Shown here: piece after piece, positions 35,215-38,014 of the stretch
Layout: each line of letters starts with the position of its first letter
Numbering within the stretch: the first letter of the stretch is position 1
Origin: a virus
Virus record (IMG/VR): IMGVR_UViG_3300025112_000048
Span: 1-41,054 of that record
DNA: 41,054 bases
Reading direction: 5' to 3' (one strand)
Notes under the pieces: generated by a model
What the model was told of the DNA's origin: nothing
Database searches by the model: none
The model's input: the letters and a program-made list of their open reading frames with translations, nothing else
Position numbers and translations under genes: made by a program

Positions 35215-36171
35215 ATGATTTCTCCAGTGTTTATTAGAGACTACCTGACCGAAAAGTTCAAGAAAGATGGAAAAATTGTTTCAGACGGGACTGAGATAGT
35301 TATTCCGTCTATTTTCATAAAAGGTGATTACAAATGCCATATGAGTATCAACCTTGATACTGGTATGTGGCAGTGTTTTAAGTCTAAAGAAAAAGGTGGG
35401 TTTCTCAAACTATACGCAATATTGGAAGAAGTTGAGTATAGCCGAGCCAAAGGAGAGGTCTTCTACAGTTCTTATCTATCCAAGTATACTCCCAAAGAAG
35501 AAATTACTAAGTCCAACATCAAACGAGAAGCATTTGATTTTGACGAATTCCTGGCTGATTGCCAACCCTTGTGGGAAGTAGACCACAGAGATGTTACTCG
35601 TCTAGTAGAAGATGCATCTAATTTCTTACAGGATAGATGTCTTTGGGATACTGGGAAATATTGGGTGTGCCAGAAAGGCGACTATGAAGGGCGTTTAATA
35701 ATTCCATTCTTTCTAGGTGAGAAGGTAGTTTTCTTCCAAGGCAGGACTCTTGATGACAGAATGCCTAAATACAAGAATTTCAAAGGTATGAAGTGTTCTG
35801 ACATCCTATACCCTTTCGATTGGGAAGCGGACGAACTATACGTTACTGAGGGGGTTCTGTGCTGTAAAACTCTGAGATCTTTGGGATACAATGCTACTTG
35901 CATTAGCGGGTCTTATGTGAGTCGTGAACAGGCTCTTCAACTAAAACAGTTTGAAGGTAAACTTATCCTGGCTATGGATAATGATGAAGCAGGAATTTCC
36001 GCTACCCAATCCTTTAATCAAACTAGAAAAAGTCTAATGATGCCTTCTTTCTGGAGTGTGAGCCCTCTCTCCCCTTATAAGGATTGGAATGAGGAATACG
36101 TCAACGAAGGGTCAATTTATCTAAAACCAACTCTATATGATTGGGCTCACGTAGCTGCTAACGCACTATAA
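35215..36171 (+). CDS. 61: DNA primase (T4 gp61 / DnaG-type, Toprim)
   Basis: This 318-aa protein makes RNA primers at the fork. The RNA-polymerase core shows GRLIIPFF, FFQGRTLDDRMPKYKN and the Toprim motifs LYVTEG (Glu212) and LILAMDNDEAG (255-260). The length is near T4 gp61 (342 aa). The N-terminal zinc ribbon is reduced: C41-H42 and W52-x-C54 are present, but the expected last cysteine is Ser57 (CFKSKEKGG). Zinc binding, and with it template recognition, may therefore differ. No helicase domain is attached, so it likely partners a gp41-like helicase outside the window. The start codon directly abuts that of the divergent nuclease, and only a weak AGTGGA precedes it. Confidence 0.9.
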   Translation: MISPVFIRDYLTEKFKKDGKIVSDGTEIVIPSIFIKGDYKCHMSINLDTGMWQCFKSKEKGGFLKLYAILEEVEYSRAKGEVFYSSYLSKYTPKEEITKSNIKREAFDFDEFLADCQPLWEVDHRDVTRLVEDASNFLQDRCLWDTGKYWVCQKGDYEGRLIIPFFLGEKVVFFQGRTLDDRMPKYKNFKGMKCSDILYPFDWEADELYVTEGVLCCKTLRSLGYNATCISGSYVSREQALQLKQFEGKLILAMDNDEAGISATQSFNQTRKSLMMPSFWSVSPLSPYKDWNEEYVNEGSIYLKPTLYDWAHVAANAL

Positions 36172-37111
36172 AGTGCATAAGCGGAGTTACAATAGTTTCA
36201 TTGAGAACTGTATACTTTACTCTTAGTGCATAGGGGCCAAGTAAAGCACCTGACTCTCCTGTAGCTACCGACGCCATTGTCTTTAGGTCATTAGTATTCC
36301 AGTTAAACAACAGAGTATTATCTGAAGTAATATCCACTGTGGCTGAAGTATCTGAATATGCTGACACAGTTAAATGTCCCGCCAAAGCTTGATTGTCGTT
36401 CAGCTTGATAATCTGGAACATAGCACTCGTAATGACGCTGTCCTTGAAAATGTTACGAGCAGCCTCATCGATATTACGATTTTCAATAGCTACGGTAGCC
36501 TCTACCTTTAGGTTCACGGTTGAACCCAGATCAACATGCTTATTAGTTAGCCTGTTATGCATCTTGATAATTAGAGGTTCTGTAATGGCTATAAACGTAT
36601 TATCATGAAGAGATACATCTCGAATGTAAGTTGTATAATTAGACGATCCTACATTCCTTACTGTCCAAACATCAATGTAATCCCCAATTGCACTAACAGC
36701 ATTAGCCAGTGCGCTACCATTGAAATGCCCTGACAGGTCCAAAGTCCCATCGAGAACAGCAATATACTCACCAGTCTTTACACGATAGATTCCAGAAGCG
36801 GCTTCTCCTGGTTCATACGCTGTAGCTGCCAGAGCACTTCCAGCTACTCGACCTCCCCCAGGCATCCCGAGAGGGGAAGAAGCCTGGAAATGCATAAGGA
36901 TATCACCATAAACCCCCGTAGCAATCAGGCCACTACCATTCAAAATAGTGCTAGGACTGACATTCTTATCTTTCTGGAAGATGGAAACGCTACTAATGCT
37001 ATTCGGATCTGTAAACTGCCCGTCATTAATAAAAAACATACGCAGCCCCACCCGTTGGTTTACACCAGGGCGATTGTGCCTATCTACTAGTTCTACTCCG
37101 TTCAGCAGCAT
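36158..37111 (-). CDS. Hypothetical beta-rich, probably virion structural protein (317 aa)
   Basis: No family recognised. The protein starts MLLNGVELVDRHNRPGVNQR, is rich in Val, Thr, Ser and Asn, and has alternating hydrophobic patterns throughout (LGPYALRVKYTVLNETIVTP near the end), as in Ig-like or other beta-sandwich virion proteins. It begins 32 nt inside the -1 frame extension of the gp26-like gene and ends with a 14-nt convergent overlap with the primase gene. Being co-transcribed with hub assembly genes suggests a tail or baseplate role, but only by position. Confidence 0.7.
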   Translation of the reverse strand: MLLNGVELVDRHNRPGVNQRVGLRMFFINDGQFTDPNSISSVSIFQKDKNVSPSTILNGSGLIATGVYGDILMHFQASSPLGMPGGGRVAGSALAATAYEPGEAASGIYRVKTGEYIAVLDGTLDLSGHFNGSALANAVSAIGDYIDVWTVRNVGSSNYTTYIRDVSLHDNTFIAITEPLIIKMHNRLTNKHVDLGSTVNLKVEATVAIENRNIDEAARNIFKDSVITSAMFQIIKLNDNQALAGHLTVSAYSDTSATVDITSDNTLLFNWNTNDLKTMASVATGESGALLGPYALRVKYTVLNETIVTPLMHFIVR

Positions 37112-37274
37112 TGTTTTGTCTTTCTATATCCTCGTTGTAGAGTTTTAGGAAAATTGCTCTGTCGGTTCTAGTAAGTGACAGTAAATCAGACCAAGTAAAG
37201 CCTATTTCCTTTATAAGTATATAGGCTTCTAGATAGAGAGAGTTTAAGTCTAAAAATTCTTCTATCTCCCTGTA
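37080..37274 (-). CDS. -1 frame extension of the gp26-like gene (64 aa, probable programmed frameshift)
   Basis: After the T-run at 37280-37274 the -1 frame stays open for 64 codons past the gp26-like stop, to a TAG at 37082-37080. It reads YREIEEFLDLNSLYLEAYIL, then IKEIGFTWSDLLSLTRTDRA and IFLKLYNEDIERQNNAAE. No ATG, GTG or TTG lies between the previous stop in this frame (TGA just before the T-run) and this conserved-looking helical sequence, so a separate start is unlikely. A -1 shift would make a 311-aa fusion (247 + 64). This resembles the lambda gpG/gpGT tape-measure chaperone pair. The position also matches T4 gene 51, which follows gene 26. Confidence 0.75.
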   Translation of the reverse strand, partial: YREIEEFLDLNSLYLEAYILIKEIGFTWSDLLSLTRTDRAIFLKLYNEDIERQNNAAERSRTSR

Positions 37275-38014
37275 AAAAAACTTTCGTCAAACGGAACCTC
37301 CAATTTAGTTTCACAGCCACATCCTAGAGATTCGCATTTATAGAGAAATTGAGTATCAACTCCATACTCAGGCATACCGATCCCATTGAGTAGAGTATGA
37401 ATATCTTTAAGCTTGAGCTTTTTTACAACAGCCGAAATAATCTCTTTATTTGTATGTCCATCTATACTCTCAATAAATCTATACATATTGGCAGCAGCAA
37501 CTTCTACATTATTTAGATACTTGTGGTCCTCAGCCTTAGGAAAGATCACCCGAGCATGTTTTTCACAAACAGGAAGATAGACTTCTCTAGGATTAGTAAG
37601 ATCTTCGGGGACCTTGAGGTGAGCTAATTTAGAGATATCAATAGAAATCGGCTGCGTATCCCCACACTCAGGACAAGTAATATCGGCCTTAAAATCAGAA
37701 CCGTAGGAAATCTCTCTAATCTTTATTAGAATATAGATTTTATCCATCTCCAAGATTTGTCCTGGGGACACGTTTAGCAGGCACCTAGAAATAATATAAT
37801 TTATAGCTTTGTCCCCTCTAGCATCTTTTATGGATGCTATCCCTCTTTCATCCTCAAACGTCATCGGTCTAATCTGAATTGGACGACTTGGATCTTGTGG
37901 CGTATAGAACAACCCTCTCGATGGGAAATCAGCATCTACTGCGATGTCATCAGGCACGCAACCAAGAATATCGGCTACTATTTCTTCGTGAGATAGTGTT
38001 TGTTTTTGTGTCAT
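37262..38014 (-). CDS. 26: Baseplate hub assembly protein / tape measure chaperone (T4 gp26-like)
   Basis: A 250-aa protein of the T4 baseplate hub assembly family (gp26-type). It has PSRGLFYTPQDPSRPIQIRP followed by MTFEDERGIASIKDARGDKA near residues 31-70. ITCPECGDTQ (about 113-122) with a later VCEKHA may bind zinc. Length is close to other members. In T4, gp26 and gp51 help assemble the hub and tape measure. The ribosome-binding site is good (TTGGAGTTATTTTATG). The gene is divergent from uvsW, an arrangement also close to the T4 uvsW-25-26-51 region. Its end contains a slippery T-run leading into a start-less -1 frame, so a minor fusion product is expected. Confidence 0.85.
   Translation of the reverse strand: MTQKQTLSHEEIVADILGCVPDDIAVDADFPSRGLFYTPQDPSRPIQIRPMTFEDERGIASIKDARGDKAINYIISRCLLNVSPGQILEMDKIYILIKIREISYGSDFKADITCPECGDTQPISIDISKLAHLKVPEDLTNPREVYLPVCEKHARVIFPKAEDHKYLNNVEVAAANMYRFIESIDGHTNKEIISAVVKKLKLKDIHTLLNGIGMPEYGVDTQFLYKCESLGCGCETKLEVPFDESFFTGR
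37274..37280 (-). other. Candidate -1 slippery site (seven U)
   Basis: In the gp26-like frame the mRNA reads AGU UUU UUU ACA GGG AGA UAG, giving a U UUU UUU heptamer in the correct register for tandem slippage, four codons before the stop. After a one-base backward slip the two Phe codons still pair perfectly and the open -1 frame is entered. I did not find a convincing downstream pseudoknot by eye. Confidence 0.65.

Follow-up and report, generated by a model that had tools for sequence, protein, structure and literature searches.

The window analysed here, a 41,054-nt stretch of viral DNA (IMG/VR record IMGVR_UViG_3300025112_000048, positions 1 to 41,054), carries a gp26-like gene whose 3′ end contains a slippery heptamer and overlaps a conserved open frame in -1 (Table 1). 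The product of the gp26-like gene generated hits on PF12322 (E = 9.7e-15; 55.3 bits, above the curated cut-off of 24.5) and on phrog_150 (E = 1e-18), which places it in the T4 gp26 family. Its AlphaFold2 model (pLDDT 90) was closest, among 441 chains of solved structures, to the HK97 tail assembly chaperone 2ob9 with Z = 6.3 over 90 residues, a value below 8, and the runner-up scored 3.5. The closest viral matches were gp26-type baseplate hub proteins, and no sequence relative was found among solved structures. The 317-aa product of the next gene did not match Pfam or PHROG, and the 542-aa candidate tape measure protein generated no family match in profile searches.

Table 1. Features of the gp26-like locus and its surroundings in the window.
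Feature	Position	Strand	Basis
gp26-like gene for the predicted major short form (TAC-N), 250 aa	37262..38014	-	PF12322, phrog_150, homologues, predicted fold
Slippery heptamer T TTT TTT (X XXY YYZ), predicted -1 frameshift site	37274..37280	-	TTTTTTT or TTTTTTC in 76/76 sequences
-1-frame extension, 64 codons + TAG, gp51-like C-terminal domain (TAC-C)	37080..37274	-	Open frame, conservation, selection, homology
Possible stimulatory stem-loop behind the heptamer	37231..37267	-	Marginal in the window, more pronounced in many relatives
AAGCCTATATACTT, conserved nucleotide motif within the extension, probable promoter	37215..37228	-	Codon-level fixation, recurrence in relatives
317-aa gene, start overlaps the extension end	36158..37111	-	Conserved neighbour in relatives
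Candidate tape measure protein (expected client), 542 aa	32022..33650	-	Residue make-up only

The slippery heptamer and the overlapping -1 frame

The gp26-like open reading frame ends with AGT TTT TTT ACA GGG AGA TAG, the stop codon lying at 37264-37262. When the -1 frame is read from TAC (37274), it encodes YREIEEFLDLNSLYLEAYILIKEIGFTWSDLLSLTRTDRAIFLKLYNEDIERQNNAAERSRTSR and stops at TAG 37082-37080, so that the long form would comprise 247 + 64 = 311 aa against 250 aa for the short form. Direct reading of the sequence thus bore out the first-pass annotation on the gene end, the 64-codon frame and the two product lengths. A single scan of IMG/VR yielded 76 relatives with 30-44% identity to the gp26-like protein. 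As one of them (L064) ends before the heptamer, 75 complete homologues remained, giving 76 sequences with the window. The heptamer was present in every one, as T TTT TTT in 22 and T TTT TTC in 54, and was followed within a few codons by the 0-frame stop. Among the 61 distinct homologues, which were used for the stop and heptamer-codon counts, the first Phe codon of the heptamer was always TTT, compared with 76% TTT (24% TTC) elsewhere in the gene, and the codon 5′ of it always ended in T. Only the final base of the heptamer varied between T and C, either of which allows re-pairing of tRNA-Phe. The invariant positions are exactly those that tandem slippage would need, and their constraint exceeds codon bias. 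A Shine-Dalgarno-like GGAGG lies upstream in the window and is not conserved in the relatives.

The -1 frame was open over 57-66 codons in all 75 complete homologues and the window. No -1 stop occurred within 40 codons after the 0-frame stop in any of the 61 distinct homologues, while stops were present in the 0 and +1 frames of all 61. In the protein alignment, conservation of the extension sets in at the heptamer, and invariant residues are spread along its whole length. The median pairwise dN/dS over extension codons 5-50 was 0.26, compared with 0.78 and 1.66 when the identical bases were read in the other two frames. Over 27 independent pairs, pN/pS was 0.47, with a non-synonymous deficit of p = 1e-25 (approximately). 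The extension thus evolves under purifying selection, as judged from its codons; the first-pass annotation had proposed such selection, together with a shared T-run and open frame in homologues, as checks on its reading, and each was found. The extension was modelled by AlphaFold2 as a compact small helical domain (pLDDT 89). Its matches in BFVD were weak, all with E above 0.2, and included tail assembly (chaperone) proteins and one gp51. A Pfam search of the extension gave no sound match, and a tblastn search with an extension as query returned, among annotated phages, only weak matches to Lak phages.

The mean 45-nt folding energy across the loci dips at +10 relative to the heptamer (z = -3.6 versus other positions), and synonymous recoding gave a mean z of -1.15 versus -0.47 to +0.28 for controls. 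The hairpin of the window itself was no better than its synonymous recodings (z = -0.2). Neither a consensus fold nor covariation was found downstream of the heptamer; a conserved downstream RNA structure was therefore rejected as stimulator, leaving the stem-loop as a possible aid. A second dip in folding energy (mean -9.05 kcal/mol per 45 nt, z = -3.4) lies 70 nt past the heptamer, immediately following the promoter-like motif described below.

Homology to gp51 and a promoter-like motif within the extension

In profile searches, 42 of 56 extensions matched phrog_634, "baseplate hub assembly catalyst" (gp51), with a best E of 7e-5; the extension of the window alone gave E = 0.096. When the extension profile was searched against the whole genomes of KVP40, P-SSM2, S-PM2 and HTVC008M, each generated one match (E = 2.6e-5 to 1e-3), in every case the ORF annotated gp51 directly behind gp26. 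In these four phages, the site at the end of gp26 reads T TTT TTC or T TTT TTT, and the -1 frame holds the short gp51. They thus share with the window the gene order, the frame relation, the T TTT TTY site and a homologous extension, and differ in being annotated as two genes and in an N protein only distantly similar to that of the window lineage. The jumbo phages RAS14 and Atu_ph07 also carry the heptamer and a like arrangement by eye, with no significant match to the extension profile. A related locus with a T TTT TTC site and extension is present on contig QCKN01000003.1 (130 kb) of the Prochlorococcus single-cell genome AG-409-P03, a hint of the host or of a co-sorted virus of this group.

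In T4, the C-terminus of gp51 (249 aa) aligned weakly with the extension (E = 0.038), and its upstream body aligned with the gp26-like family (E = 0.0013), as would be expected if T4 gp51 were a one-piece TAC-NC. By these comparisons, the extension is homologous to the C-terminal domain of gp51 and to the short "gp51" of the cyanophages, HTVC008M and KVP40, just as the N protein belongs to the gp26 family. T4 differs in having two separate genes, a gp26 without a -1 extension of this sort and a gp51 that appears to combine N and C parts, in place of the single gene with a predicted frameshift. The first-pass annotation had placed the segment where T4 has gene 51, after gene 26; this does not hold for T4, in which genes 26 and 51 are divergent neighbours, and is correct as the tandem order in P-SSM2, S-PM2, HTVC008M and KVP40.

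Cyanophage gp51 was noted to be about 20% of the usual length, with the first ~200 residues absent, and marine vibriophage gp51 to be likewise much shorter than T4 gp51 (Sullivan et al. 2010, PMC3037559). A frameshift would account for the absent residues, since the short gp51 would be the -1-frame tail of gp26. The "gp51" genes of the cyanophages (NC_006883, 7187-7390; NC_006820, 151121-151363), the pelagiphage (NC_020484, 16366-16578) and KVP40 (NC_005083, 186612-186794) are thus probably -1-frame tails of gp26 mis-annotated as separate genes. In the gp26 homologues of SP-15 (L078, 3600-3880), LIS04 (L079, 3640-3940) and GXN1 (L082, 3640-3990), the C-domain-like frame lies in +1, not -1, and NCC CGA TTY is common to the three just 5′ of the stop. 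These genes possibly encode the chaperone in a form made by +1 frameshifting. In Streptomyces phage BRock (L081, 3690-3907), the C-domain-like frame, in +1 relative to gp136, carries a gene annotation of its own (gp135, 60 aa), and this too may be a frameshift tail.

The extension also contains a strictly conserved promoter-like motif, GCCTATATA; AAGCCTATATACTT is conserved at this position in about 70 loci. Extension codons 16-19 read GAA GCC TAT ATA, followed in most members by CTT or TTG. Within the motif, codon choice was nearly fixed: GCC was used for 56 of 56 Ala (15% elsewhere), ATA for 58 of 58 Ile (22% elsewhere) and TAT for 55 of 58 Tyr. A CCTATATA core recurs 25-30 nt ahead of start codons in several relatives and ~120 nt ahead of gp26 in others, nearly always in the same direction as the gene. 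In the window, the motif sits ~110 nt 5′ of the 317-aa gene, which starts at 37111 within the last extension codons. The motif was not found upstream of other genes in the window, and the promoter reading accordingly draws on the relatives. AAGCCTATATACTT/GCCTATATA is most likely a phage promoter for the 317-aa gene.

A predicted frameshifted tail assembly chaperone

The heptamer, the open frame, the selection on it and its homology to gp51 support the proposal of the first-pass annotation, a probable programmed -1 frameshift of the lambda gpG/gpGT design. Very probably, programmed -1 frameshifting gives the gene two products, a 250-aa TAC-N and, in lesser amount, a 311-aa TAC-NC. We infer slippage at a rate that would let the majority of ribosomes end at TAG 37264-37262 and release the gp26-like TAC-N. 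At U UUU UUU, the Phe-tRNAs in the P and A sites of some ribosomes would slip back by one base, and these ribosomes would read the 64 codons of the -1 frame to produce TAC-NC, ending in the helical gp51 C-domain. Should the two forms work like lambda gpG/gpGT, their N-domains would act as chaperones that coat the tape measure protein, with the 542-aa protein as putative partner, the C-domain would recruit tail-tube subunits, and neither form would remain in the virion. Several points count against this reading: no conserved downstream RNA structure was found, the hairpin of the window does not surpass its synonymous recodings, the promoter-like motif explains part of the DNA conservation of the extension, the 2ob9 match stays under Z = 8, and the short gp51 of P-SSM2 and S-PM2 has a nearby ATG from which it may be initiated separately.

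The extension might instead be a separate small gene, translated from its own, possibly non-standard, start or by coupling to gp26, which we consider quite unlikely. The gp51 genes of P-SSM2 and S-PM2 are annotated as separate and begin with an ATG within the first few codons of the -1 frame, and many relatives have an ATG at extension codon 33. However, the window has no ATG, GTG or TTG in the -1 frame, as the first-pass annotation had observed, even back to the preceding stop, and relative L067 has no start codon in the frame either. The first potential starts in other relatives are scattered, mostly within the folded domain and at no conserved place ahead of it. The onset of conservation at the heptamer and the invariance of positions required solely for slippage also argue against a separate gene. 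It is similarly very improbable that the frames are joined by slippage of RNA polymerase rather than of the ribosome. The seven T's of the window would suit such a mechanism, but 54 of the 76 sequences have six T's and then C, six T's are short for polymerase slippage, and the pattern is precisely the one expected for X XXY YYZ re-pairing.

Homopolymer sites are prone to error, and a sequencing or assembly indel could have split one former long gene. This is refuted by independent genomes, as the identical frame relation recurs throughout the 76 sequences and again in T4-like phages with published genomes; with so many independent contigs and reference genomes carrying the site, the chance that the T run is an error is negligible. 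Equally negligible is the chance that the -1 frame is open solely owing to a signal in the nucleotide sequence, be it a promoter or an RNA structure, without translation. Conservation of AAGCCTATATACTT does exceed coding need, but the motif leaves the protein conservation outside it unexplained: D, R and F residues there are invariant with free synonymous variation and purifying selection, and the encoded protein is homologous to gp51. Ribosomal frameshifting thus stays the preferred reading.

Frameshifted tail assembly chaperones are classical, lambda gpG/gpGT having reportedly been described as a -1 frameshift system by Xu, Hendrix and Duda in 2004. The slippery site of lambda is G GGA AAG, in contrast to U UUU UUY here. 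Both have a slippery site where the N gene ends, an extension without its own start and, as predicted here, an N product plus a minor -1-extended product. The window differs from lambda in its N protein, which is of the gp26 type, has conserved Cys pairs and comes from a contractile-tailed phage, and in that the gene is not directly ahead of a recognised tape measure gene. In SP-15, LIS04 and HTVC008M, the gp26-like gene comes after the tube gene and ahead of the tape measure gene, or of whichever large tail gene follows, matching the position of lambda G/T between tube and tape measure; KVP40 has the order tube-gp26-gp51. The order in the window is less tidy, with the 317-aa gene next and the candidate tape measure gene starting ~3.4 kb beyond.

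The first-pass annotation had regarded such frameshifting as not generally described for gp26-type genes. This does not stand, as tail assembly chaperones of T4-like phages are reported to have been described by Vladimirov et al. 2022, as cited in PMC12846349, where poly-T slippery sites are mentioned, and in PMC10885494, where separate short and long genes are mentioned. Beyond these citations, nothing specific to gp26-type genes was found in the papers on frameshifting that were consulted. The chaperones of Pakpunavirus Adele, Vandenendeviridae and Andersonviridae (PMC12846349) resemble the present case as myovirus -1 frameshifts at a T-run ending TAC-N, and differ in their GTTTTT motif. The frameshifted tail assembly chaperone is thus already known, and the new detail is the promoter-like GCCTATATA inside the extension; the strength of the present case lies in the breadth of evidence and in this overlapping motif.

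Taken together, these observations suggest that the gp26-like protein of a large uncultured phage lineage acts as a tail assembly chaperone and that a domain of 64 residues has been missing from it, in an extension that gene callers would overlook. The site is strictly conserved across this large, little-studied group of phages. The observations also offer a simple reason for the short gp51 of cyanophages and vibriophages, an oddity since 2010 (PMC3037559): these are probably -1-frame tails of gp26, not genes. More tentatively, and with somewhat less than even confidence, we propose that ~200 bases here hold three layers, a frameshift signal, a -1-frame gp51-type domain and a strictly conserved GCCTATATA promoter for the next gene. 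Under the same proposal, the N and C parts of gp26-type phages would be joined by -1 slippage (window lineage, cyanophages, KVP40), by +1 slippage (SP-15, LIS04, GXN1) or as a fused separate gene (T4), so that it may be the junction, not the proteins, that evolves.
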